Part shown: in pieces, positions 7,805 to 54,325 of the stretch
Layout: each line of letters starts with the position of its first letter
How positions within the stretch are numbered: position 1 is the stretch's first letter
From: Leucobacter triazinivorans
Lineage (GTDB): Bacteria > Actinomycetota > Actinomycetes > Actinomycetales > Microbacteriaceae
Reading direction: 5' to 3'
Length of the DNA stretch: 64,000 bases
Assembly (NCBI RefSeq): GCF_004208635.1
Contig: NZ_CP035806.1
Span: forward strand, 1,488,001 to 1,552,000
Notes under the pieces: model-generated
What the model saw: the letters and a program-made list of their open reading frames with translations, nothing else
Databases searched by the model: none
Told to the model about the DNA's origin: nothing
Program-made: the position numbers and the translations under genes

Positions 7805-8912
7805 GCGCAAGTTCGACGATGCGGGTGAGCACGGCGGGATCGGTCTCGGGCGGCACGCCGTGGCCCAGGTTCAGGATGTGCGCGGGTGCCCGCGAGCCGC
7901 GCCGCAGCACCTCGTCGAGATGCGCCTCGAGCTGCGCCGCGGGAGCGCCGAGGAAGGCGGGGTCGAGATTGCCCTGCAGGGGCAGGGCGTCGCCGAGCCG
8001 GCGGCTGGCGTCGTCGAGCGGGGTGCGCCAGTCGACGCCGAGCGCGCTGACGCCCACCTCGGCGAGCTCCTCGAGCAGGTGCCCGGAGCCGACCGCGAAG
8101 TGGATCATGGGGACGGTCTCCTGCTGCACGGCGTAGCCGTCGCGCAGCGGATGCCGGTAGGCGATCCCACGCACCGCGTCGAGGGTGCGGCGGGAGGCGG
8201 GCGCGACGTGCTCCCGGTAGTCCGCGGCGCTCAGCGAGCCCGCCCAGGAGTCGAACAGCTGCACCGCACTCGCCCCGGCCTCGACCTGCGCCTCGAGGAA
8301 CGCCCCGCTGAGCTCGGCGGCCCAGTCGAGCAGCTCGCGCCAGGCAGCGGGGTCGGCGTGCATGAGCGTGCGAGCGCGCAGATGGTCCCGGGACGGCCCG
8401 CCCTCCACGAGATAGGCGGCGAGCGTGAACGGGGCGCCGGCGAAGCCGATGAGCGGCGTGCCGCCGAGCTGCGCGACCGTCAGGCGCACCGCCTCGCGCA
8501 CGGGTTCGAGCGCCTCGCGGAGCCGATCCGCAGTGAACTCGGCCCGGCACCGCGCCACGTCGGCCGCGCTGCGCACGGGCTGAGCGAAGACGGGGCCGCG
8601 CCCCGCGACCAGATCGACGTCGACCCCGGCCAGCATCAGCGGCACCACGATGTCGCTGAAGAAGACCGCGGCGTCCACCCCGTGGCGCCGCACCGGCTGC
8701 AGCGTGATCTCGCTCGCGAGGTCGGGATTCACGCAGGCGTCGAGCATACGATGATCGGCGCGGATACTGCGGTATTCGGGCAGCGAGCGGCCCGCCTGGC
8801 GCATGAACCAGACGGGCACGCGCTCGGGCCGATCGCCGCGGAGGGCGCGGATCAGGGTGGCGTCGCTCGTGCGGCCGTCGACGAGGGGGTGCGAAGCTGG
8901 GAGGAAGTTCAT
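7794..8912 (-). CDS. hemE: Uroporphyrinogen decarboxylase
   Basis: HemE removes four acetate carboxyls from uroporphyrinogen III to give coproporphyrinogen III. The 372-residue product from ATG 8912 shows the signature PVWFMRQAGRSLPEYR, the catalytic aspartate in FFSDIVVPL, the GFAGAPFTLAAYLVEGG block and the C-terminal GNLDP and LNLGHGV motifs. It is the first gene of the minus-strand haem run and faces hemA across a 117-bp region with a palindrome. In-frame codons upstream of 8912 run into that region and look non-coding, so ATG 8912 is preferred. Confidence 0.95.
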   Translation of the reverse strand: MNFLPASHPLVDGRTSDATLIRALRGDRPERVPVWFMRQAGRSLPEYRSIRADHRMLDACVNPDLASEITLQPVRRHGVDAAVFFSDIVVPLMLAGVDVDLVAGRGPVFAQPVRSAADVARCRAEFTADRLREALEPVREAVRLTVAQLGGTPLIGFAGAPFTLAAYLVEGGPSRDHLRARTLMHADPAAWRELLDWAAELSGAFLEAQVEAGASAVQLFDSWAGSLSAADYREHVAPASRRTLDAVRGIAYRHPLRDGYAVQQETVPMIHFAVGSGHLLEELAEVGVSALGVDWRTPLDDASRRLGDALPLQGNLDPAFLGAPAAQLEAHLDEVLRRGSRAPAHILNLGHGVPPETDPAVLTRIVELAHAR

Positions 8913-8932
8913 CGTTCGAGATGCTAGCTTAT

Positions 8933-8957
8933 AGATCTGATGTGAAACATCTGATCT
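8933..8957. promoter_or_regulatory. 25-bp palindrome between hemE and hemA (candidate operator)
   Basis: The arms AGATCTGATGT (8933-8943) and ACATCTGATCT (8947-8957) are inverted around GAA with one mismatch. The site is AT-rich against its surroundings and lies 20 bp before hemE and 72 bp before hemA, in the only region that can hold both divergent promoters. It fits a dimeric repressor or activator that co-regulates all haem genes here. The protein is not identified. Confidence 0.55.
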
Positions 8958-9029
8958 GCTCAGCTCGGGGTGAGACTCCGGGCCTCGATCCACGAATACC
9001 CCCGGTCACGACACTTCTCGAGAATCTTC

Positions 9030-41554: not shown

Positions 41555-42082
41555 ATGGACGCGGCGAAGCAGCAGGAGGAAGCCCTCCTCGATGATGTCG
41601 ACCGGGACATCATCGACGAGCTCCGAGTGGACGGCCGCCTCTCGTTCTCCGAGATCGGCCGACGGATCGGGTTCTCGGAGCCCACGATCCGACAGCGCTA
41701 CAACCGGCTCGTCTCGCTCGGCATCATCTACGTGGCCGGAATGTACGACGAGACGAAGATCGGCGGGATCGCGGCCCACATCGGCATCCGGGTCGCTGAG
41801 GTTCCCGTCGCTCGCGTCGCGGAGGAGATCGCGGACCACCCGCAGGTGAAGTACGTCGCGTGCGCGCTCGGCTACTACGACATCATCCTCGACGTCATCG
41901 CTCAGGACGCCCAGGAACTCGGGAGGATCGTGCTGCAGGACCTGCGTCGGATCCGCGGCATCTCGGACTTGGAGACCCTCACCGTGCTCGAGGTGATGAA
42001 GGACACCTACCTGTGGCAGGGCTTCCGCGAGCCGCTCCCCGCGAACCGCGCGGGACGGCTGCTCAGCCGTCCGGGTCGCTGA
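41555..42082 (+). CDS. Lrp/AsnC-family transcriptional regulator (first)
   Basis: The 175-residue regulator has an N-terminal winged HTH (DDVDRDIIDELRVDGRLSFS, then EIGRRIGFSEPTIRQRYNRL) and a C-terminal RAM/ligand-binding domain (GGIAAHIGIRV through LETLTVLEVMKDTYLWQG). It is transcribed toward the second Lrp gene, and the two coding regions overlap by 20 bp at their 3' ends. The adjacent catabolic and transport operon suggests control by an amino acid or amine ligand. Confidence 0.9.
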   Translation: MDAAKQQEEALLDDVDRDIIDELRVDGRLSFSEIGRRIGFSEPTIRQRYNRLVSLGIIYVAGMYDETKIGGIAAHIGIRVAEVPVARVAEEIADHPQVKYVACALGYYDIILDVIAQDAQELGRIVLQDLRRIRGISDLETLTVLEVMKDTYLWQGFREPLPANRAGRLLSRPGR

Positions 42083-42539
42083 TGCTCTGACCGGCGGTGC
42101 CCCGAAGCCCCTCCCAGGTGTAGTCCTTGGCCAAGGAGGTGACGATAATCGGTTGGATCGCGGCGACGCCCGGGTGCCGCCGGATCTCGTCCATCAGGTC
42201 GATGAGCTGCGGCTGATCCCGGCACGTCGCCTCGAGATACAGGTCGTGCGACCCCGCCACCAGAGCCACGTGGTTGATCTGGGTGATCCCGAGCAGCCCG
42301 TTCGCCACGGAACGGGGGGTGAGATTGCGCACGCGCAGCAGCAGGCGGACGACCTGATGGCCGAGCAGCAGCGCGTTGCACAGCGCGACGATCTGCAGCG
42401 CATCGTCCTCCCGCAAACGGGCGAGTCGGGTGCGCACCGTCGATTGAGAGACGCCCGACTCCTCGGCGAGCGAGGCGAAGCTGCGCCGTCCGTCGCGCGC
42501 GAGCATCTCGATGAGCCGTCGATCCAGATCGTCCAGCAT
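42063..42539 (-). CDS. Lrp/AsnC-family transcriptional regulator (second)
   Basis: The 158-residue protein starts MLDDLDRRLIEMLARDGRRS with an HTH (LAEESGVSQSTVRTRLARL) and then a RAM domain ending VTSLAKDYTWEGL. It is a distant paralogue of the 41555 regulator rather than a recent copy; both end with a (D)TYLWQG or DYTWEG-like helix. ATG 42539 is the natural start. It is the last gene of the minus-strand run from potB, 77 bp after the DUF849 gene, so it is likely co-expressed with the genes it may control. Confidence 0.88.
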   Translation of the reverse strand: MLDDLDRRLIEMLARDGRRSFASLAEESGVSQSTVRTRLARLREDDALQIVALCNALLLGHQVVRLLLRVRNLTPRSVANGLLGITQINHVALVAGSHDLYLEATCRDQPQLIDLMDEIRRHPGVAAIQPIIVTSLAKDYTWEGLRGTAGQSISDPDG

Positions 42540-42616
42540 GCCGCCCGCCCCTCTCGCCGCTGCACTCCAGGGTAGCGGCTCGGGCGAGAGGGGCGGGCGC
42601 AGAGACGGCCGGTCGG

Positions 42617-43342
42617 TCAGAGGGATTCCCGGGAGCGTACAGCGCGGACGAGATCGGCATTGTCTCGAGGAACGGAACCGTCCGGCATCGCCACGCCGTC
42701 CTCGAACCCGATCCGGGTCTCGCAGCCGTCCTCGATCGCGGCATCGACGACCGGCCACACGGTCTCGTCGTAGCCGTGATAGAGGATCGGGGCAGTCACG
42801 CCGGACTCTCGGAGCACCGCCGCGATCTCGCGACACTGCGCGACAGCCTGGTCGGCGTCCTCGGTCTCGGGCTCGATGAGCACGCGGACGTTCTGATGCA
42901 GGGTCGGCGAGGCGAGCAGGGCGGGGACGTCGTCCATCGACCACACTGCGGACTCCAGGATCATGCCGCGCGCGAGGACGAGTTCGGCGGCCTCGGCGGC
43001 TCCCTGCTCGCAGAACGCGACGGACGCGAAATCGGGCAGCGCATCCGCGGGCCACGCGGCGACATGGGCCATCCGCTCCTCATGGGAGGAGACTGTCCAC
43101 AGGCCCGTCGTGGTACCGATGACGACCGCTGGGTCCGCCGCGCGCATGGCGCGCACCCAGGCTCCGACGTGATCAGGGTGAATGGTCTGCTCCCCCGAGT
43201 CGGTGATGACGTGCGCATGGACGACATCGGCGCCCGCGGCGATCACGGCGAGGCTGGCCTCGACGATCTCCTCGGTCGTGCGGGGAACCGAGGGGTGCTC
43301 CTCAGTGGGACGACCACCGTTGATGGCGGCTTTCAGCAGCAT
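42617..43342 (-). CDS. DUF849 / BKACE-family beta-keto acid cleavage enzyme
   Basis: BKACE enzymes split a beta-keto acid with acetyl-CoA; 3-keto-5-aminohexanoate cleavage is the founding case. This is a short, 241-residue member: MLLKAAINGGRPTEEHPSVP at the start, the metal-binding His pair HAH (42 and 44), IGTTTGLW, and ETRIGFEDGVAMPDG near the end. The Pro-Arg that often follows the HxH motif is Val-Ile here, so the substrate may differ. ATG 43342 has AAAGGA six bases upstream. Its neighbours (nitrilase, RraA-like, amine-type importer) suggest a nitrogen-containing acid. Confidence 0.82.
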   Translation of the reverse strand: MLLKAAINGGRPTEEHPSVPRTTEEIVEASLAVIAAGADVVHAHVITDSGEQTIHPDHVGAWVRAMRAADPAVVIGTTTGLWTVSSHEERMAHVAAWPADALPDFASVAFCEQGAAEAAELVLARGMILESAVWSMDDVPALLASPTLHQNVRVLIEPETEDADQAVAQCREIAAVLRESGVTAPILYHGYDETVWPVVDAAIEDGCETRIGFEDGVAMPDGSVPRDNADLVRAVRSRESL

Positions 43343-43426
43343 GATTGGTCCTTTCCAGTGTGTTTCGGGCACGGCGGAGCAACGGCCGTCTCGGCCGTGC
43401 CCGCCGCGCGGGGAGAGCGGGTGCTG

Positions 43427-44113
43427 CTACTGCGGGGTGTCGAGCGCGAGCAGGTCTGAAACCGTCGCGCTCGCGCCGGTCAGGCTTCCGAGCGGCGCTC
43501 CAGCACGGAGCTCGGCCACGAGCTCCGGCTCGTCGGCATCGTCGGCGAGCGCGATATCGACGATGCGCTCAAGCACCTCGACCGGCACCACGAGCACGCC
43601 GTTCGCGTCGGCGAGGACTACGTCTCCGGGACGGACGACCGCTCCGCCGCAGGTCACCGGCACGTTGACGCCACCGGCATCGATCCCGTGCAGCTTGGTG
43701 GTGAGCATGCTCGTGCCCCGGGCATGAACAGTGAGCCCGAGCGCTTCGATCTCGTCGACATCGGTGACCACGCCGTCTACCACGGCGCCGGCGGCCCCGC
43801 GCGCGGCCAGCTGGGCCGCAACGACCTCGCCGAGCGGCGCGTGCCGCACGTCGCCGCCGGTATCGATCACGAGCACCTGGCCCGGTTCGATCATGCCCGC
43901 CGCGTGGTGCAGCGCCGTGGAGTCTGTCGCGGTGGTGCGCACCGTGCACGCTGTGCCGATGACGCGGCCGCCCGCGGCGACCACGCGTCGGATCCCGGAG
44001 TCTGCGAAGCCCTCCTCGAGGTAGTGGCCGAGGGTGGGGAAGCTGAGTCGCTCGAGCTTGGCCCGGAGCTCGTCGGGAAGGCCGTTCGGAGTATCTCCGG
44101 CGTGGAAGAACAT
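43427..44113 (-). CDS. RraA-like protein (HMG/CHA aldolase fold), atypical active site
   Basis: The family includes 4-hydroxy-4-methyl-2-oxoglutarate aldolases, oxaloacetate decarboxylases and RNase E inhibitors. The 228 residues show the fold landmarks GTACTVRTTATDS, the VLVIDTGGDVRHAPLGEVVA loop and AAGAVVDGVVTDVDEI. In most enzymes the last motif is D-G-x-x-R-D; here Thr117 replaces the Arg that binds the substrate carboxylate, so ordinary aldolase activity is doubtful. It is placed between the nitrilase and DUF849 genes in the same run. Function is inferred from context only. Confidence 0.82.
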   Translation of the reverse strand: MFFHAGDTPNGLPDELRAKLERLSFPTLGHYLEEGFADSGIRRVVAAGGRVIGTACTVRTTATDSTALHHAAGMIEPGQVLVIDTGGDVRHAPLGEVVAAQLAARGAAGAVVDGVVTDVDEIEALGLTVHARGTSMLTTKLHGIDAGGVNVPVTCGGAVVRPGDVVLADANGVLVVPVEVLERIVDIALADDADEPELVAELRAGAPLGSLTGASATVSDLLALDTPQ

Positions 44114-44138
44114 CGCTGATTCCTTTCGGGGTGTGTGG

Positions 44139-44939
44139 CTATCGGATGCTGTAGTCGAGCTCGATGCGACGGTTCTCGAGGGCAGGCAGCATCCTGCGTG
44201 CCGAGCGGGTGCGCTCCTCGTCGATGTCGGCGATCACCAGCCCTTCGGCGTGTGCGTCAGCTGCGGCGACCACGACGCCGAGCGGGTCGATCACCCGGCT
44301 GAGGCCGACCGAATCGGCGCCCACCGTGCCGGACGCGAGGAACCAGCTCACGTTCTCGATGGCGCGGGCCTTGGTGAGCACCTCCCAGTGCTCCTCCTTG
44401 CCCTTGCCCGACACCCAGGCGGCCGACAGCGAGATCACGTCGACGCCGCGGTCGGCCATGCTTCGGAAGAGCTCGGGGAACCGCACGTCGTAGCAGTTCG
44501 CGATTCCCACGCGGACTCCGTCGACGTCGATGATGGGCGGGAGCTCCGAGCCGCGGGTCACGTACGCGGATTCCTGGTAGGCGAACGCATCATAGGTGTG
44601 CATCTTGTGATAGCGGGCGATCTCAGCACCCTCGGGGTCGACGGCGACGATCGTGTTGTACGGCCGCCCCGCCTCGTTCGGCTCGTACCCGGCCGCGATG
44701 ATCGTCACTCCGTGGTCCCGTGCGAGCTGCGCGAGCAGCGCCTCGAAACGGGGCCACACGTCGCGCAGGATCTCGGTCATGCGCGGCTTGATCTCGTCGT
44801 CGGCCAGCAGCGCGGCCTCCTCCGGGAAGACGACCAGACGCGCCCCGCGGGAGGCCGCCTCCTCGGTATAGCGCCGAATGGTGGAGAAATTGACGTCGAC
44901 ATCGATACCGGGCGACGTCTGGACTACGGCGACTCTCAT
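44139..44939 (-). CDS. Nitrilase-superfamily amidohydrolase
   Basis: This 266-residue carbon-nitrogen hydrolase has the Glu-Lys-Cys triad: Glu40 in VVFPEEA, Lys112 in YHKMHTYDAF and Cys149 in IANCYDVRFPE. The sequence resembles omega-amidase or N-carbamoyl-type branches more than true nitrilases (NCYDVRFPELF). It would act on an amide or carbamoyl group of an imported compound and release ammonia. It is the fifth gene from potB, 39 bp after potA. Confidence 0.88.
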   Translation of the reverse strand: MRVAVVQTSPGIDVDVNFSTIRRYTEEAASRGARLVVFPEEAALLADDEIKPRMTEILRDVWPRFEALLAQLARDHGVTIIAAGYEPNEAGRPYNTIVAVDPEGAEIARYHKMHTYDAFAYQESAYVTRGSELPPIIDVDGVRVGIANCYDVRFPELFRSMADRGVDVISLSAAWVSGKGKEEHWEVLTKARAIENVSWFLASGTVGADSVGLSRVIDPLGVVVAAADAHAEGLVIADIDEERTRSARRMLPALENRRIELDYSIR

Positions 44940-44978
44940 CGGTTCCCTCTTTCGTGGTGCGGAGTTGGTGCGGCAGGA

Positions 44979-46079
44979 TCAGCGGACGACGATGCGCGCG
45001 TCCTCGGGACGCCAACGCATGAGGAGTCTCTCTCCGGTGGCGAGGCCGGGAAGATCCCGCTCCTTCACGAGGCTCGGCAACGAGACCTTGACCATCGTCC
45101 GCGCGTCGATCGCCAGGTGCACGTGCCACTCCTCGCCCAGGAAGGTCAGCGTCTCGACGACGCCGGGCACGCCCTCGCCGTCTCGCCGCACCTCGATGCG
45201 CTCGGGACGGAGGAGGAGGGTGGCCGGCCGCTCGAGGGGAACATCCTCGGCCAGCACGCCCGGGAGCACCCCGACCCCGTCGAGCACCGCCTCCACCTCC
45301 TCACCGGCGGATCCCGCCCGCACCGTGACATCGAGCAGATTGCAGCTACCGATGAATCCGGCGACGAAGCGGGTCTCCGGGCGGTTGTAGATGTCCTCCG
45401 GGCCCGCGACCTGCTGCACGATGCCCTCCGACATGACCGCGATGCGGTCGGACATCGTGAGCGCTTCCTCCTGATCGTGCGTCACGTAGATGAACGTGAT
45501 GCCGACCTCTCGCTGCATGCGCTTCAGCTCGTACTGCATCTCCTTACGGAGCTGCTGATCGAGCGCGCCGAGCGGCTCGTCGAGCAGCACCACCTTGGGG
45601 CCGGAGACCACGGCGCGAGCCAGCGCGACGCGCTGCCGCTGACCGCCCGAGAGCTGGTCAGGCTTCCGGTCCCCGAGGTGGGACAGCTTCACGAGTTCAA
45701 GTGCCTCGTGCGCACGACGATCGGCCTCTGCGCGGGGCACTCGCCGCACCCGGAGCTCGAAGACCACGTTGTCGAACACCGTGAGGTGCGGGAACAGCGC
45801 GTAGCTCTGGAACAGCATGTTGAGATCACGGTTGCGCGTCGGCACATCCGTGACGTCCGCGCCACCGAGCCGCACCCGGCCGCTCGTCGGCGTCTCGAAC
45901 CCGGTGATCATACGCATGAGCGTCGTCTTCCCGCAGCCCGAGGGACCGAGGATGGAGAAGAACTCGTTCTCCCGGATCTCGAGATCGAGCGGGTGCACGG
46001 CGAGGTGCCCATCGAAGCTCTTCGAGATCCCCTCGATCTCGACGGCCGGTGCAGTGGTGGTCGTGGTCTGCGCAGTCAT
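44979..46079 (-). CDS. Polyamine-type ABC transporter ATP-binding protein (PotA-like)
   Basis: The 366 residues contain Walker A GPSGCGKTT, the signature LSGGQRQRVALARA, Walker B VVLLDEPLGALD and the H-loop IYVTHDQEEA. A C-terminal TOBE domain (from about residue 285) is typical of the PotA/CysA/MalK group. Two potB/potC-type permeases and a PotD-like binding protein precede it. The order binding protein then ATPase is 38 bp apart. The substrate could be putrescine, spermidine or another small amine. Confidence 0.9.
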   Translation of the reverse strand: MTAQTTTTTAPAVEIEGISKSFDGHLAVHPLDLEIRENEFFSILGPSGCGKTTLMRMITGFETPTSGRVRLGGADVTDVPTRNRDLNMLFQSYALFPHLTVFDNVVFELRVRRVPRAEADRRAHEALELVKLSHLGDRKPDQLSGGQRQRVALARAVVSGPKVVLLDEPLGALDQQLRKEMQYELKRMQREVGITFIYVTHDQEEALTMSDRIAVMSEGIVQQVAGPEDIYNRPETRFVAGFIGSCNLLDVTVRAGSAGEEVEAVLDGVGVLPGVLAEDVPLERPATLLLRPERIEVRRDGEGVPGVVETLTFLGEEWHVHLAIDARTMVKVSLPSLVKERDLPGLATGERLLMRWRPEDARIVVR

Positions 46080-46117
46080 GATCCCAATCGCTGTTCAGTC
46101 GAATCGGCGTGTGCCGG

Positions 46118-47170
46118 TCAGGAGGCCTTCACCCGGGTCCAGCCGTCCTGGTAGAACGTCATCGCGCTGCCCGGATCGACGATGAAGTCGGCGTTGGCCA
46201 CCTGCTCTTCAGAGGCGTAGACCGCGGCGTTCGACAGCAGTCCCTGATCGGTCACGTGCTCCTGCGCCGCCTGGTTGGCGCTCGCGAGGCCCCCGTCGTT
46301 CGTCGCCATCGCGGCGATCTCGGGCCGCAGCAGGAAGCTGATGAACTCGTAGGCCGCTTCTTGGTTCGGCGCACCCTTCGCGATCGCGAGACCGTCGACC
46401 CACAGGCTGCCGCCCTCTTCCGGGATCACATAGTGGACATTCTCGTTCTCCTCTACGATCTTCGCGGTGCTGGTGCCTCCCCACGCCTCGGAGATGCAGA
46501 CGTCGCCGTTGGCCACCAGCTCGCCGTAGTTGGTGGAGTTGTAGCCCGCCAGGATGTCTTTCTGCTCGATGAGCGACTCCGTCGCCTGGGCGATCTCCTG
46601 CTCGTCGGTGCTGTCGGCGTCGAATCCGTTGACCTGCAGACCGGCGATGTACGCGGCAAGCATGTTGTCGAGCATGTTCAGCTTCCCGTCCCACTTCGGG
46701 TCGAAGAGGGACGCCCAGCTCGTGATCTCCTCGCCGCCGGTGCACTCGGAGTTGTACATGAGGCCCGTGGTGCCCCATACCCAGGGCACCGAGTATTCGA
46801 GGCCGGGGTCGTAGCTCGGGTCGGCGAAGGTTGCCGCGATGTTGTCGAGGCCCTCGATCTGCGACTTGTCGAGGGGCTCGATGAGCTCCTGACCGACGAG
46901 CTGCTGCACCGCGTACTGGCTGGGCTCGACGATGTCGTAACCCGAGTTCCCCGCGGCGAGCTTCGAAATCATGGTCTCGTTGCTGTCGAAGTTGTCGACG
47001 TTGACCGCGATGCCGGTCTCCTCCGTGAACGCGTCGAACACGCTCTGGGGGATCTCGTCGGCCCACGCGTAGACATTGAGCTGCTGGGCGCCGCCCTCCG
47101 AGCTTCCGCTGCAGCCGGTCAGTGCCAGCGCGGCGACGATGCCGACGGCAGCGAGCGTCTTCTTCTTCAT
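46118..47170 (-). CDS. Polyamine-type substrate-binding lipoprotein (PotD/PotF-like)
   Basis: This is a 350-residue extracellular lipoprotein: signal peptide with lipobox LALTGC (Cys about 20), then QQLNVYAWADEIPQSVFDAF, the PotD-like first strand and helix. YDIVEPSQYAVQQLV and VPWVWGTTGLMYNSE are family blocks around the ligand cleft. PotD proteins hold amines with acidic and aromatic residues; I could not assign each ligand-binding residue. It gives the module its specificity. Confidence 0.88.
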   Translation of the reverse strand: MKKKTLAAVGIVAALALTGCSGSSEGGAQQLNVYAWADEIPQSVFDAFTEETGIAVNVDNFDSNETMISKLAAGNSGYDIVEPSQYAVQQLVGQELIEPLDKSQIEGLDNIAATFADPSYDPGLEYSVPWVWGTTGLMYNSECTGGEEITSWASLFDPKWDGKLNMLDNMLAAYIAGLQVNGFDADSTDEQEIAQATESLIEQKDILAGYNSTNYGELVANGDVCISEAWGGTSTAKIVEENENVHYVIPEEGGSLWVDGLAIAKGAPNQEAAYEFISFLLRPEIAAMATNDGGLASANQAAQEHVTDQGLLSNAAVYASEEQVANADFIVDPGSAMTFYQDGWTRVKAS

Positions 47171-47216
47171 GACGGTATTCCTTTCGGTGGGTGAAGGGGT
47201 GGAGCTGTGGGGCTCG

Positions 47217-47999
47217 TCAGGAGCGTGAATCGACGAGAATGCGTCGCATCTGAGTGACTCCGACCGCGAGCACGATCACGAGGGTGAGAAGGATGAGCAG
47301 TGCGCCGAGGGCGTTGATGCTCGGAGTGAGGCCGGTCTTCAGACTCGAGTAGATCTTCAACGGGAGCGTGGTCGACCCGACACCGCTCAGGAAGGTCGAC
47401 ATGACGATGTTGCTGAACGAAGTGGTGAAGCTCAACAGCCAGGCCGCGACGACCGCGGGGCGCAGCAGCGGCAGGTACACGCGTGTGAAGGTCTGCCACG
47501 GCGTGCAACCGAGATCGGTCGCCGCCTCCGGCAGGCTCGGGTCCAGCATCGCGGCCGAGCTCATGAGCACGAGCGTTGCCAGCGGGAGCGACACGATGAG
47601 GTGGCCGAGCACGAGTGTGGTGATCCCGAGCGGCACCTTGACAGCGCTGAAGACGCTCAGGAGCGCGACGCCCAGTACGATCTCGGGAACGATGAGGGGC
47701 AGCGCGATGAGTGCCAGGAGACCTCCCTTGCCGGCACCGCGGTAGCGCGACATCCCCAGCGCGAACATGATCCCGATCACGGTGGCAACGGTCGCGGTGA
47801 GTACGGCCACCACGGCGCTCGTGCGCAGTGTCTGCATGAGCGCCCCGTCCTGGAACAGGTCGGCGTACCACTGGAGCGTGAATCCTTCGAAGCGGGTGCT
47901 GGTTCCCGCGGCGTTGAAGGAGTAGATGATCACCGCGGCGATGGGCACGTAGAGGAAGACGAACACTCCACGGGCGATGCCGTTCACGATGCGGTCCAC
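47217..47999 (-). CDS. Polyamine-type ABC transporter permease (PotC-like)
   Basis: The 260-residue inner-membrane permease has about six helices and the EAA loop EAATDLGCTPWQTFTRVYLP near residue 160, which contacts the ATPase. ATG 47999 lies three bases after the potB stop, so translation is coupled. The downstream 46-bp gap precedes the binding protein gene. Confidence 0.88.
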   Translation of the reverse strand: MDRIVNGIARGVFVFLYVPIAAVIIYSFNAAGTSTRFEGFTLQWYADLFQDGALMQTLRTSAVVAVLTATVATVIGIMFALGMSRYRGAGKGGLLALIALPLIVPEIVLGVALLSVFSAVKVPLGITTLVLGHLIVSLPLATLVLMSSAAMLDPSLPEAATDLGCTPWQTFTRVYLPLLRPAVVAAWLLSFTTSFSNIVMSTFLSGVGSTTLPLKIYSSLKTGLTPSINALGALLILLTLVIVLAVGVTQMRRILVDSRS

Positions 48000-48002
48000 G
48001 GG

Positions 48003-48884
48003 CTACGCCCCCTTCTTGGTCGAGGTGCGCCTCATGAGGAGGCCGATCAGCCCCATCGAGAGCACCATGAGCACGAGCAGCACCATCGACACGGCGGCTC
48101 CCATCGGCTGGTTGCGGAACTCCGTGTAGAGAGTGACAATCAGGTTTCCGACGAGCGGATCCTTGCCCCCGCCGAGCAGCACCGGAATGACGAAGACGCC
48201 CATCGTAGGAATGAACGTCAGCAGGGCCGCTCCCAGGATGCCCGGCCGGCTCAGCGGCAGGATCACCCGCCGGTGCACCCCCCACCACCCGCATCCGAGA
48301 TCGGTCGCGGCCTCCTTGAGCGAGGGATCGATCGACCGCATCGAGGCGTAGATCGGGAAGATCGCCGTCGGGAGGAAGGCGTAGAGCAGCCCGAGCACCA
48401 CCGCGACGTTGCTCGGGATCATGGAGAACCCGGACAGCCCGAATATTCCCAGTACCCCTGCGATCGGGCCCCCCGAACCGAGGATCGTGATCCACGCAAA
48501 GGTACGCACGAGGAAGTCGGTCCAGAACGGGATGATGACCAGAAGCAGGAGCAGCCCCTGTCGCCCCTCAGGGCGGGACACGATGTAGTACGAGGTGAGA
48601 TAGCCGACCACGATGCAGACGACCGTGTTCAGCAGTCCGAGGCCGAGCGAGAACAGCAGGGTCTTCGTATACACGGGGTCGATCAGCTTGGTGTAGTGCT
48701 CCAGCGTGAAGCCCCCGACGATCCCGCCGTAGTTGTCGGCGACCGCGAAACTGTTCCGAGCGACGATGAACAGCGGGAGGATGCCCAGCAGTACGACCGA
48801 GGCCACTCCCGGGATCAGCAGGAGCAGCGATCCGCGTTTCGGACGCTCCTTCCGACCGAGGTGAATCATGCGTGTCGATGTCAC
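48003..48884 (-). CDS. Polyamine-type ABC transporter permease (PotB-like)
   Basis: The 293-residue permease has a first helix LLLLIPGVASVVLLGILPLF, about six helices in all, and the EAA loop KEAATDLGCGWWGVHRRVIL. GTG 48884 is chosen because AAGGGAG lies four bases before it; a later ATG or a longer frame to 48920 are alternatives. It is the first gene of the minus-strand run that ends with the Lrp gene at 42063. A small hairpin (48931-48954) lies upstream, before the right direct repeat. Confidence 0.87.
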   Translation of the reverse strand: MTSTRMIHLGRKERPKRGSLLLLIPGVASVVLLGILPLFIVARNSFAVADNYGGIVGGFTLEHYTKLIDPVYTKTLLFSLGLGLLNTVVCIVVGYLTSYYIVSRPEGRQGLLLLLVIIPFWTDFLVRTFAWITILGSGGPIAGVLGIFGLSGFSMIPSNVAVVLGLLYAFLPTAIFPIYASMRSIDPSLKEAATDLGCGWWGVHRRVILPLSRPGILGAALLTFIPTMGVFVIPVLLGGGKDPLVGNLIVTLYTEFRNQPMGAAVSMVLLVLMVLSMGLIGLLMRRTSTKKGA

Positions 48885-49023
48885 GTTGCTCCCTTGCGCT
48901 CGCCGTCGGTCTGTGTGCATTCACTATCCTGAGCGCCGGGCGAGGGCGGCGCTCACGAATGCACCGCGGAATCCGTGGCAGACTCCGCGAATCTTCACGC
49001 AGTCCGCACGAGTGGTCGGACGG

Positions 49024-49065
49024 CCCGCGCGCGCTCAGCCGACGAGGCGCAGCGTCTCGCGCGCG
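49024..49065. repeat. 42-bp direct repeat, right copy (native ackA 3' end)
   Basis: It spans the stop and last codons of ackA plus 11 bp beyond. One mismatch separates it from 41457-41498. The two copies enclose 7.5 kb that carries both Lrp genes and the uptake/catabolic run. No integrase gene lies between them. Confidence 0.85.
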
Positions 49066-50216
49066 ATCTCGGCCTCTTCGTCCGTGGGCACGACGAGGAT
49101 CTCGACGGGAGAGCCCTCGGCGCCGATGCGCCGCGCACCGCGCTCGGGGGATGCATTGCGCTCGGGGTCGATACGGATTCCGAAGCCCTCGAGATCCGCG
49201 CACACCGCCGCGCGCAGCTCGGCCTGATGCTCGCCCACGCCCGCCGTGAAGATGAGCGCGTCGAGCCCGCCGAGCTCGACGAGGTAGGCGCCGAGATAGT
49301 GCCGGATCCGGTGGACGGCGACCTCGATGGCCAGCGCTGCCTGGGAGTCACCCGCATCGGCCGCCGCCCGCACATCGCGGAAGTCGTTGCTCCCGGTGAA
49401 GCCGAGCAGTCCGGATCGGCCGTTGAGCAGTCGATCGAGCCCGCCGACGTCGTATCCGCCGCGCAGCAGATGCAGGAGCGCGCCCGGATCGATGTCGCCG
49501 CTGCGCGTGCCCATCACCAGCCCCTCGAGGGGCGTGAGACCCATGGACGTGTCGACCGAGCGGCCGCGGTCGACCGCGCACGCCGATGCCCCGTTGCCGA
49601 GGTGCAGCACGATCTGCCGCAGGCTTTCGAGCGGGCGCCCGAGGAACTCGGCTGCCCGGCGCGACACCACCTGGTGGGAGATCCCGTGGAATCCGTACCT
49701 GCGCACGCCGTGCTCCGCGGCGACCTCGGGATCGATGGCGTAGGTATATGCGCTCGGCGGCATGGTCTGGTGGAATGCGGTGTCGAACACCGCCACGTGC
49801 GGCACCCGGGGGAAGAGCGCCCGCGCGGCGACGATCGCCTGATACTGACCGGGGTTGTGCAGCGGGGCGAGCGCGCCCAGCTCAAGGATGCGCTCGGCGA
49901 CGGCGTCGTCGATCAGGGTGGGGGCGACGAACTCCTCGCCGCCCTGCACTACTCGGTGGCCCACGGCCGTGATCCCGAGGCCTTCGATCGGTGCGCCCTG
50001 TCTCGCGAACGCGGCGACGAGTTCGTCGAACGCCGCGCCGTGGTCCGGAACGACGACGGCGCGCTCCTCCTCCCGCACGCCGCGATGCACGATCCGGCCC
50101 TCGGCCTCGCCGATGCGCTCGACGAGGCCGGCTGCAGAGCGCTCACCGCTCGTCGGATCGATCAGCTGATACTTGATCGATGATGATCCGGCGTTGATCA
50201 CCAGGATGTGGTTCAT
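49035..50216 (-). CDS. ackA: Acetate kinase
   Basis: AckA interconverts acetyl phosphate and acetate with ADP/ATP. The 393 residues start MNHILVINAGSSSIKYQLID and contain VFDTAFHQTMPP, RRYGFHGISHQ, LGNGASACAVDRGRSVDTSM and FTAGVGEH, all conserved. It lies downstream of pta on the same strand with a 153-bp gap that contains two repeat tracts. Its last codons form the right 42-bp direct repeat, so the gene end is intact while a copy of it sits near dnaX. Confidence 0.96.
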   Translation of the reverse strand: MNHILVINAGSSSIKYQLIDPTSGERSAAGLVERIGEAEGRIVHRGVREEERAVVVPDHGAAFDELVAAFARQGAPIEGLGITAVGHRVVQGGEEFVAPTLIDDAVAERILELGALAPLHNPGQYQAIVAARALFPRVPHVAVFDTAFHQTMPPSAYTYAIDPEVAAEHGVRRYGFHGISHQVVSRRAAEFLGRPLESLRQIVLHLGNGASACAVDRGRSVDTSMGLTPLEGLVMGTRSGDIDPGALLHLLRGGYDVGGLDRLLNGRSGLLGFTGSNDFRDVRAAADAGDSQAALAIEVAVHRIRHYLGAYLVELGGLDALIFTAGVGEHQAELRAAVCADLEGFGIRIDPERNASPERGARRIGAEGSPVEILVVPTDEEAEIARETLRLVG

Positions 50217-50226
50217 GCTGCTCCTC

Positions 50227-50268
50227 GGTTTCGATTTCGACTTCGCTCCGCTCCGCTCAATGGGCGAG
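50227..50268. repeat. Dispersed repeat GGTTTCGA...GCTCAAT, copy 2
   Basis: It resembles 20371-20410 in start, end and GCTC-rich centre but is shuffled inside. In both places it lies directly upstream of a minus-strand gene start (tmk, ackA). Confidence 0.4.
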
Positions 50269-50293
50269 TGGGCTCGACTCCGCGACGCATCAG

Positions 50294-50347
50294 CCCACCG
50301 CGCCCACCGCGCCCACCGCGCCCACCGCGCCCACCGCGCCCACCGCT
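50294..50347. repeat. Six tandem copies of a 9-bp unit between pta and ackA
   Basis: CCCACCGCG is repeated five times exactly, and a sixth copy ends in T. The tract lies in the pta-ackA gap and could vary in copy number. Confidence 0.75.
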
Positions 50348-50369
50348 CCCGGTGCGGCCAGCGCGCCGC

Positions 50370-52487
50370 TCACCCTGCGGAACGTGCCGCGCCCGCCTGG
50401 ACGGCGGTGATGGCGACGGTGTTCAGGATGTCATCGACCGTCGCGCCGCGAGAGAGGTCGTTCACGGGCTTCGCGAGTCCCTGCAGCACCGGCCCGACCG
50501 CCACCGCGCCGGCCGAGCGCTGCACCGCCTTGTAGGTGTTGTTGCCCGTATTCAAGTCGGGGAATATGAATACCGTCGCCCGCCCGGCCACCTCCGACCC
50601 GGGCAGTTTGGCCTGTCCCGCGACGGGATCGACTGCGGCGTCGTACTGGATCGGGCCCTCGACGGGCAGATCGGGGCGCGCGGCCCGTGCCAGGGCCGTC
50701 GCCTCGCGCACCTTGTCGACGTCGGCGCCCGATCCCGACTCGCCCGTCGAATAGGAGAGCATCGCGATCCTCGGATCGACCCCGAACTGGGCGGCGGTAT
50801 CCGCCGACGACACCGCGATGTCGGCGAGTTGCGCGGCCGACGGGTCCGGGTTGACGGCGCAGTCGCCGTAGACGAGCACACGATCGGCGAGCGCCATGAA
50901 GAACACGCTCGAGACCACCGAGACGCCCGGCCGGGTCTTGATGATCTCGAGACTCGGGCGGATCGTGTGTGCGGTCGTGTTCGCCGCGCCCGAGACCATG
51001 CCGTCCGCCAGATCGAAGTGCACCATCATCGTGCCGAAGTAGCTGCCGTCGGCCATGACGTCCCTGGACTGCTCCAGGGTCACCCCCCGGTGCGCGCGGA
51101 GTCTGGCGTACTCGGCGGCGAAGCGATCCCGCAGCGGAGAGGTCGCGGGATCGATGACCTCGGCCGCGTCGATCGCGAGGCCGAGCTCTCCGCCGCGCTT
51201 GCGCACGTCGGCCTCGTCGCCGAGGATCGTGAGGCGCACCGTGCCTCGGGAGAGGAGCGTGCTCGCGGCGCGGAGGATGCGGTCGTCGTTGCCCTCGGGC
51301 AGCACGATGTGCGCGTTCGCCTCCGCGGCCCGGGCGAAGAGCTCGTAGGCGAACATGACGGGTGTGCGCACCCCGCCGCGGTGCAGGCGCAGACGCTCGC
51401 GGAGCGTCGCCCCGTCGACGTGCTGCGCGAAGAGGGCGAGCGCGGTGTCGAATTTGGCGGGCGACTCCTCGGTCAAGAGCCCCCGGGCCCGGGAGATGCG
51501 ACGGGCGGTGTCGAAGGTCCCGAACGGTGTGCGCACGACCGGGATGCGGGAGTCGATGCCGTCGAGCAGGCGCACGACGGCGGCCGGCAGCTCGAACTCG
51601 CCATTGAGCACCACTGCTGCGATGGTCGGGAACGTCGGCGCCTCGTGCGCCATCGTCACCGCCAGCAGCGTCTCCGAACGATCCGCTGCGATCACCACCA
51701 CAGACCCCTCGAGCAGTCGCGGCAGCACGTGCTCCATCGACATGCCCGCGACGACCACATCGCGCACCTCGCGCGCCAGCAGATCGGCGTCTCCGCGGAC
51801 CAGGCGGCCCTCCACCGCGTCGATCACCCCGGAGACCGGCGGAGCGACCAGCAGCACCTCCTCGGGCACGGCCCACACCGGCGCGCCCGCCGGCAGTGCG
51901 GCGGATACGGCGTGCTCGATCTGCTGCAGACGCTCCGGATCCGACCGGTTCACGAGCGCGGCGAGGAGGGAGGCGTGCTCCGCATGCAGCTCCGCGACGC
52001 CGAGCTCGGCGAGCTGGGCGATCTCCACCGGGGTGCGCGCGGGCTGCTGCCCGAGGTGCTCCGCCTCCTCGTTGGAGCGGCCGCCGAGCACCAGCAGGAC
52101 GGGCGTGTCGAGGTTCGCGGCGATCCGCGCGTTGACGGCCAGCTCGGTGGGCGCTGCGACGTCGGTGAAGTCGGAACCCACCACGATCACGGCGTCGCAG
52201 TGCTGCTGCAGCGCCCGATACGCCGCGACGATTCGCGTCATGGCGGCTTCCGGGTCTGCGTGCGCGTCCTCGTAGGTGACGCCGACGCAGGCGTCGTAGG
52301 GCACATCGGCCGTCGCGCGGGTGCGGAGCATCTCGAGCACTCGATCGCGTTCGCCGGAGGAGCGGATCAGCGGACGGAAGACGCCCACACGCGGGGCATC
52401 GGCGAGCAGCGCGTCGAGCACGCCGAGTGCGACGGCGCTCTTCCCGGTGCGGCCCTCGGCCGAGGTCAGGTAGATGCTTGCTGCCAC
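50370..52487 (-). CDS. pta: Phosphate acetyltransferase (long, DRTGG-domain form)
   Basis: Pta converts acetyl-CoA and phosphate to acetyl phosphate, partner of AckA. The 705 residues comprise an N-terminal dethiobiotin-synthetase-like P-loop domain (IYLTSAEGRTGKSAVALGVL), a DRTGG regulatory domain (about 210-320) and the C-terminal catalytic PTA domain (from about 375; MVSGAANTTAHTIRP and TVFIFPDLNTGNNTYKAVQR). The start is GTG 52487; its GGAGG lies unusually close. It is separated from ackA by repeats only. Confidence 0.95.
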   Translation of the reverse strand: MAASIYLTSAEGRTGKSAVALGVLDALLADAPRVGVFRPLIRSSGERDRVLEMLRTRATADVPYDACVGVTYEDAHADPEAAMTRIVAAYRALQQHCDAVIVVGSDFTDVAAPTELAVNARIAANLDTPVLLVLGGRSNEEAEHLGQQPARTPVEIAQLAELGVAELHAEHASLLAALVNRSDPERLQQIEHAVSAALPAGAPVWAVPEEVLLVAPPVSGVIDAVEGRLVRGDADLLAREVRDVVVAGMSMEHVLPRLLEGSVVVIAADRSETLLAVTMAHEAPTFPTIAAVVLNGEFELPAAVVRLLDGIDSRIPVVRTPFGTFDTARRISRARGLLTEESPAKFDTALALFAQHVDGATLRERLRLHRGGVRTPVMFAYELFARAAEANAHIVLPEGNDDRILRAASTLLSRGTVRLTILGDEADVRKRGGELGLAIDAAEVIDPATSPLRDRFAAEYARLRAHRGVTLEQSRDVMADGSYFGTMMVHFDLADGMVSGAANTTAHTIRPSLEIIKTRPGVSVVSSVFFMALADRVLVYGDCAVNPDPSAAQLADIAVSSADTAAQFGVDPRIAMLSYSTGESGSGADVDKVREATALARAARPDLPVEGPIQYDAAVDPVAGQAKLPGSEVAGRATVFIFPDLNTGNNTYKAVQRSAGAVAVGPVLQGLAKPVNDLSRGATVDDILNTVAITAVQAGAARSAG

Positions 52488-53972: not shown

Positions 53973-54129
53973 GTCCTCAGCCTAGGCGAGCCGTGCAGGC
54001 GGCGGGGGCGGGCGCGGTGCGGGGCGGGGCGGAAAGCATGACCCCGGCGTCGCAGAGCACGCGCGATTTCGGGCCAGTTCGGGCGAGTTCGCGCGACTTC
54101 GCCCGATTTCGGGGAAACCCGGAAAAAGT

Positions 54130-54221
54130 AAGACTCCCCACGCACCCGCCAGAGCCCGAGTACCCTTGCTGCATTTCTGCCCTGGGGGAGTTTCCCGAGA
54201 TAGCGCCACGTGGGGAGCTCG
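54130..54221 (-). ncRNA. ffs: Small signal recognition particle RNA (4.5S type)
   Basis: Read on the minus strand, the apical loop is CCAGGGCAGAAATGCAGCAAGGG in two halves (CCAGGGCAGAAATGC and AGCAAGGG), matching the conserved Ffh-binding hairpin, and CTCGGGCTCTGG follows. The ends CTCCCCACG (54217-54209) and CGTGGGGAG (54142-54134) pair to close the rod. A CTTTTT tract lies directly downstream (to about 54123) as terminator. Exact ends are estimated. SRP RNA guides Ffh to ribosomes for membrane insertion. Confidence 0.9.
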
Positions 54222-54325
54222 ACCAGTCTACCGGAAATCATCGCGGTGCTCGCACGCGCTCTCACACGCTCGCACCCCCGCCCGGTTCCGCGGCGGCGCG
54301 GGCACGGCGGCGCCCGCAGCCGCCG

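Follow-up and report, generated by a model that had tools for sequence, protein, structure and literature searches.

What is taken up and broken down by an operon that joins a polyamine-type ATP-binding cassette (ABC) importer to an amidase, an RraA-like protein, and a DUF849 protein? The question is raised by a minus-strand run of eight genes (potB-potC-potD-potA-nit-rraA-duf849-lrp2) at positions 42063-48884 of the window, the whole 64,000-nucleotide stretch of Leucobacter triazinivorans DNA analyzed here (contig NZ_CP035806.1, positions 1,488,001 to 1,552,000). An initial annotation, made from the sequence alone, had suggested an uptake-and-catabolism unit in which amide hydrolysis is followed by beta-keto acid cleavage with acetyl-CoA. 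Domain scanning and open reading frame analysis bore out the order, the strand, and the tight spacing that it reported, with gaps of 3 bp (potB-potC), 46 bp (potC-potD), 38 bp (potD-potA), 39 bp (potA-nit), 25 bp (nit-rraA), 84 bp (rraA-duf849), and 77 bp (duf849-lrp2); the second Lrp gene, lrp1, does face the run, and its end overlaps the tail of lrp2 by 20 bp.

Our analyses support an uptake-and-catabolism unit with Lrp genes, and we consider it probable that this is a self-contained catabolic operon through which an amidated small acid is imported, its amide is hydrolyzed by Nit, and a carbon-carbon bond is cleaved by a noncanonical DUF849 enzyme. In such a pathway, the importer, with its altered PotD-type protein, would take up a small carboxylic acid bearing an amide or carbamoyl group; Nit would cut this group and pass the acid to the short, presumably zinc-binding DUF849 enzyme, whose action on the carbon skeleton, cleavage or rearrangement, would follow a mechanism different from that of BKACE enzymes, without their Glu base and perhaps without acetyl-CoA. 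With its metal-site Asp retained and the enolate-stabilizing Arg lost, the RraA-like protein may carry out a second metal-dependent step other than pyruvate aldol cleavage. We infer the order of steps after Nit from a Nit-DUF849 fusion described below, and the two Lrp proteins would regulate the unit.

Conservation of the gene block

When genome contigs were scanned with a 20-sequence DUF849 alignment, 52 loci were obtained. The genes potB, potC, potD, potA, nit, rraA, and duf849 lie on one strand and in identical order in 45 of them, and these intact loci span 15 actinobacterial genera. The seven exceptions comprise a locus whose contig ends inside nit (L031), one with a partial gene (L065), two of a variant type (L069 and L070), and three loci at 31 to 40% identity from which the cluster is absent (L076 to L078). 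Given that the block recurs in 45/52 loci, the eight-gene set is a real unit, beyond chance, and the proposed linkage holds in relatives. The spread within the family is nevertheless patchy: 7 of 199 genomes, including that of L. triazinivorans, had a DUF849 match at E ≤ 1e-60, and the other six carry nit, rraA, and lrp2 beside DUF849 on stretches too short to show the importer. The nearest named relatives by the DUF849 protein are Leucobacter, and this gene is the only PF05853 match in the 3.48-Mb genome.

The Lrp genes are downstream in most loci, with lrp1 in varying orientation, but the loci of Streptomyces and Microtetraspora, one Mycolicibacterium locus out of three, and one Marmoricola metagenome-assembled genome (MAG) carry them upstream of potB; L042 and L043 had no Lrp match. 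When the flanks were read with crude gene finding, the Lrp pair was the sole group to recur in all 15 genera, the next being an ABC-type group in 5 genera. Since no flanking group other than the Lrp pair was found in more than 5 genera, the three enzymes may suffice for the pathway. A GTGGAAA...TTTCCAC dyad, a possible operator, was also observed upstream of potB in Streptomyces loci L051 and L061, and one or both of its halves occur in 8 of the 45 loci.

Residue replacements in the DUF849 protein

The DUF849 protein scores above the curated cut-off of PF05853 and has the TIM-barrel fold of that family, to which cis-epoxysuccinate hydrolase also belongs. Among 48 relatives (counts that leave out L065 and L076 to L078), the presumed zinc ligands H42, H44, and E214, together with R210 and D215, were invariant, as were E112, R153, E157, and H189. 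In BKACEs, Glu171 (PdKce numbering) is described as the catalytic base, with an inactive E171L variant, in PMC11961710, where an Arg is said to have been proposed earlier for this function, and a role has been ascribed to a Tyr (Tyr173/Tyr145) in PMC12871164. By alignment, in which placement rests on the Glu-x-Tyr spacing, the position of Glu171 is occupied by Ala132 (Ala in 20/20 sequences), whereas Glu was found there in 11/11 full-length DUF849 rows; the Tyr position is Trp134 in 48/48 relatives. At 241 amino acids, the protein also lacks two glycine-rich loops and ~35 C-terminal residues.

These replacements bear directly on the ending proposed originally, in which a normal BKACE cleaves a beta-keto acid with acetyl-CoA. 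Although the family membership, the Kce fold, the presumed zinc ligands, Arg210, and Asp215 are all retained, and an Arg was the base in the earlier proposal (PMC11961710), the missing Glu, the Tyr-to-Trp change, and the absent loops and C-terminal residues argue against it. Moreover, no dehydrogenase group that could supply a beta-keto acid recurs in the flanks of over 3 genera, as read by crude gene finding, and we regard this ending as unlikely.

The initial annotation had based its suggestion of new chemistry partly on a missing Arg after the HxH motif. The window protein does read HAHVI here, but Arg is present in 36 of the 48 relatives, and the 12 relatives with Ile or Leu are all Leucobacter or Agromyces. 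Judged from the alignment, this difference is a change within Leucobacter and Agromyces rather than a mark of the subfamily; the marks are Ala132 and Trp134 in the DUF849 protein and Thr117 in the RraA-like protein. Signs of unusual chemistry are supported.

Fusion of Nit to the DUF849 protein

The Glu-Lys-Glu-Cys residues, which have catalytic roles in the nitrilase superfamily, are present in 48/48 relatives of Nit, and the PF00795 score is far above its cut-off, so the amide-hydrolase step is supported. Nit resembles the NIT-FHIT/NIT2/deaminated glutathione amidase branch in these residues and in a CYDxRFPE motif, and its best solved relative, 1ems, belongs to the Nit branch. It nonetheless falls under the cut-offs of all 10 NCBIfam models among the matches listed, including those for deaminated glutathione amidase (232 versus 355 bits) and N-carbamoylputrescine amidase (101.5 versus 410.25 bits), and it differs from that branch in being joined to DUF849 in some Leucobacter.

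A search of 36 same-genus genomes recovered 7 with the window type of locus (at least 82% identity) and 5 with a second type (57 to 63%), with G034 carrying both. In 5/5 second-type loci, Nit and DUF849 form one stop-free reading frame; in the one fused protein scanned with Pfam, PF00795 covers residues 2-248 and PF05853 covers residues 267-511. This shared frame in five genomes of the genus makes it very likely that Nit and DUF849 catalyze consecutive steps. The second-type loci carry an oligopeptide-type importer, an AAT (PF03417) protein, an RpiR regulator, and a hydrolase-looking protein without a Pfam match, and an RraA-like gene (62 to 65% identity) was present in G034 and G029, where the stretch reached far enough. 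The enzyme trio is thus kept while the importer is exchanged.

Altered ligand site of the binding protein

The importer shares its gene set with the PotABCD spermidine/putrescine importer, and PotD (1pot) is the best solved relative of its binding protein. In PotD, the acidic pair Asp168/Glu171 and the residues Trp255 and Asp257 have roles in the polyamine site. Trp34, Trp255, and Asp257 are conserved in each of the 12 cluster proteins (of 45) that were compared, whereas Asp168 is replaced by Asn and Glu171 by Ala or Ser in 45/45, Tyr37 is replaced by Glu, and Glu36 is also replaced. Because the acidic pair is lost throughout, the protein is probably not a polyamine binder, which speaks against the small-amine binding first assumed for it. 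Both acids are retained in the other PotD homologue of this genome (L139, 33%) and in a Natronorubrum PotD homologue (38.6%).

The altered signature extends beyond the actinobacterial loci. It is present in L161 and L174, which share the importer and whose PotD proteins are 51.8% and 50.6% identical to the window protein, and, as N168/Ser171/Glu37, in the PotD homologues of pTiS4 and pTiQ15/94, at ~50% identity; Ti-plasmid homologues with this signature lie at L172 (pTiS4) 7932-8969 and L173 6932-7969. A function in rideopine catabolism has been hypothesized for the RIC region of pTiS4 and pTiAB2/73 (PMC10410297 and PMC8554961). This link through pTiS4 hints at a conjugate with one free amine and no more.

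The shared signature and the tie of RIC to rideopine would fit an opine-like diamine conjugate as the substrate (for example, a compound resembling rideopine or the lactam of rideopine), which PotD proteins of this clade would take up and Nit would open. Still, the rideopine role has been published as a hypothesis, a ligand cannot be assigned from 50% identity, and an opine-type oxidase accompanies the actinobacterial operon in no more than a few genera in the flanks read by crude gene finding, so we consider such a substrate doubtful.

RraA-like proteins and exchanged modules

In HMG/CHA aldolase (RraA family, 3noj), Arg123 is described as essential, with R123A activity below detection, in PMC5065237. 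The L. triazinivorans protein retains the fold and the metal-site Asp (Asp124 in the aldolase), but Thr117 takes the place of Arg123 in 48/48 relatives, extending to the whole set the Thr-for-Arg change first seen in the window.

RraA relatives without the Arg are found elsewhere in importer modules, often with Nit; some of these modules lack DUF849 and have an HpcH/HpaI-type aldolase. A Nit homologue was present in 10 of 18 fetched loci of Arg-less relatives versus 0 of 4 with the Arg, and of 12 plasmid regions inspected around RraA relatives, most contain modules of similar build. In L155, the order is PotD-like, PotA, PotB, PotC, RraA, and Nit, without DUF849, and the binding protein scores best, below cut-off, with aminoethylphosphonate-binding models. 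L153 combines a HpaI/GarL-like aldolase (below cut-offs) with Nit, a TRAP importer, and RraA, while the plasmid loci L161 (Shinella), L163, L171, and L174 have aldolase/citrate lyase or hydroxy-oxovalerate aldolase annotations near the RraA-like gene. An HpcH/HpaI-type aldolase gene thus accompanies the RraA-like gene in all five, and no DUF849 was found in L153, L161, L163, or L171 by tblastn or in L174 by annotation only. The Shinella module has PotBCDA proteins at 47 to 52% identity and, like the window, a Thr-type RraA, but an aldolase/citrate lyase-family protein and an annotated 5-guanidino-2-oxopentanoate decarboxylase where the operon has Nit and DUF849. DUF849 therefore seems to occupy the place of the HpcH/HpaI-type aldolase of some other modules, which argues for a role in carbon-carbon cleavage.

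The same exchange could suggest that the substrate is a 2-oxo or hydroxy dicarboxylic acid carrying an omega-amide (of the 4-methylene-2-oxoglutaramate type), from which Nit would remove the amide before the acid is split into products of the pyruvate type. The substrates of omega-amidases and the best model of Nit, that of deaminated glutathione amidase, are in keeping with this route. However, the pyruvate-enolate Arg is missing from the RraA-like protein and no transaminase group recurred in the flanks as read by crude gene finding, making the route improbable. A plain operon for polyamine uptake and breakdown is very hard to sustain: although the transport genes score best with Pot models, the acidic pair is gone from every cluster protein, a second PotD homologue in the genome has it, and the domain scan found no oxidase, transaminase, or gamma-glutamyl pathway gene in the operon.

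Several observations weigh against the favored pathway of import, amide hydrolysis, and noncanonical cleavage. The residue losses are deduced from alignment to relatives at 20 to 25% identity, and PdKce and Kce are absent from the full-length DUF849 alignment. Phe occupies the Tyr position in 7 of the 11 full-length rows (10 distinct genes), so the loss of Tyr alone is weak evidence. Of the Arg-less RraA loci, 8/18 show no Nit homologue, and the Arg-type control consists of 4 loci, 2 of which have a PotA-like ATPase within 8 kb. Finally, SDR-like and AMP-binding-like groups each occur in the flanks in 3 genera, at distances of up to 8 kb, and the pathway may therefore also draw on genes outside the operon.

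No described pathway combining DUF849/BKACE, RraA, and nitrilase was found in the titles and abstract openings of the open-licence literature, in agreement with the initial annotation. In public databases, such proteins are named 3-keto-5-aminohexanoate cleavage protein, 4-hydroxy-4-methyl-2-oxoglutarate aldolase, and spermidine/putrescine-binding protein; the residues described above argue against all three names in this operon, through which at least one new enzyme activity and a new ligand for a PotD-type receptor should be readily reached. More tentatively, we propose that the short DUF849 clade could be a CoA-independent zinc lyase or hydrolase that directly takes as its substrate what its nitrilase partner, sometimes fused to it, produces, that RraA proteins in which Thr or Asn replaces Arg123 could be unrecognized nonaldolase metal enzymes marking importer-plus-amidase modules across bacteria and haloarchaea, and that together they may form an undescribed pathway for amidated acids.

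Gene features and neighboring observations

The genes are listed in Table 1. Both Lrp proteins exceed the cut-offs for the AsnC helix-turn-helix domain and for the Lrp ligand-binding domain. Among the NCBIfam matches listed (the best 25 for those three transport components that had more), TIGR01187, for the PotA subfamily, is the only model whose cut-off is exceeded. The start of potB is likely the GTG at 48884, which is preceded by a good ribosome-binding site, AAGGGAGCAAC; an alternative ATG lies at 48920. For duf849, the ATG at 43342 is most likely the start rather than the GTG at 43372, because of the lengths of its relatives.

Table 1. Genes of the run and the facing regulator (window coordinates)
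Gene	Position	Strand	Product	Domain evidence and remarks
potB	48003..48884	-	ABC importer permease	PF00528 41.6 bits; top NCBIfam matches PotB/PotH, under their equivalog cut-offs
potC	47217..47999	-	ABC importer permease	PF00528 45.9 bits; top NCBIfam match PotC, under its equivalog cut-off
potD	46118..47170	-	PotD-like substrate-binding protein, altered ligand site (N168, A171, E37, PotD numbering)	PF13416 120.3 bits
potA	44979..46079	-	ABC importer ATPase	PF00005, TOBE_2; TIGR01187 382.1 bits (cut-off 355.6)
nit	44139..44939	-	Carbon-nitrogen hydrolase (amidase), Glu40-Lys112-Glu123-Cys149	PF00795 176.8 bits (cut-off 23.2)
rraA	43427..44113	-	RraA-like protein, Thr117-Asp118 replacing Arg-Asp	
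duf849	42617..43342	-	Short (241-aa) DUF849 protein with H42, H44, and E214 as presumed zinc ligands; A132, W134	PF05853
lrp2	42063..42539	-	Lrp/AsnC-family regulator, final gene of the run	PF13404, PF01037
lrp1	41555..42082	+	Second Lrp/AsnC-family regulator	PF13404, PF01037; accompanies the cluster in other genera

Short DUF849 genes were seen in other settings. In the Gemmatimonadota MAG L076 (9992-20127), a distant one (40%) lies near genes, read by eye, whose products resemble allantoinase, OHCU decarboxylase, PuuD-like urate oxidase, and xanthine dehydrogenase; in L077, also a Gemmatimonadota MAG, a xanthine dehydrogenase-like gene, likewise read by eye, is nearby. On a Pantoea plasmid (L114:6937-8720), a short DUF849 gene adjoins an arginase-family gene. 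In Nitratireductor (L164:7069-8648), a Nit-RraA pair and a TRAP importer lie directly upstream of a thiamine biosynthesis run.

Within the window, ackA and a gene resembling phosphate acetyltransferase adjoin potB (49035-52487), and ackA is also near potB in L029, L030, L037, and L079. A bacterial small signal recognition particle RNA was detected at 54126-54222 on the minus strand (58.5 bits).

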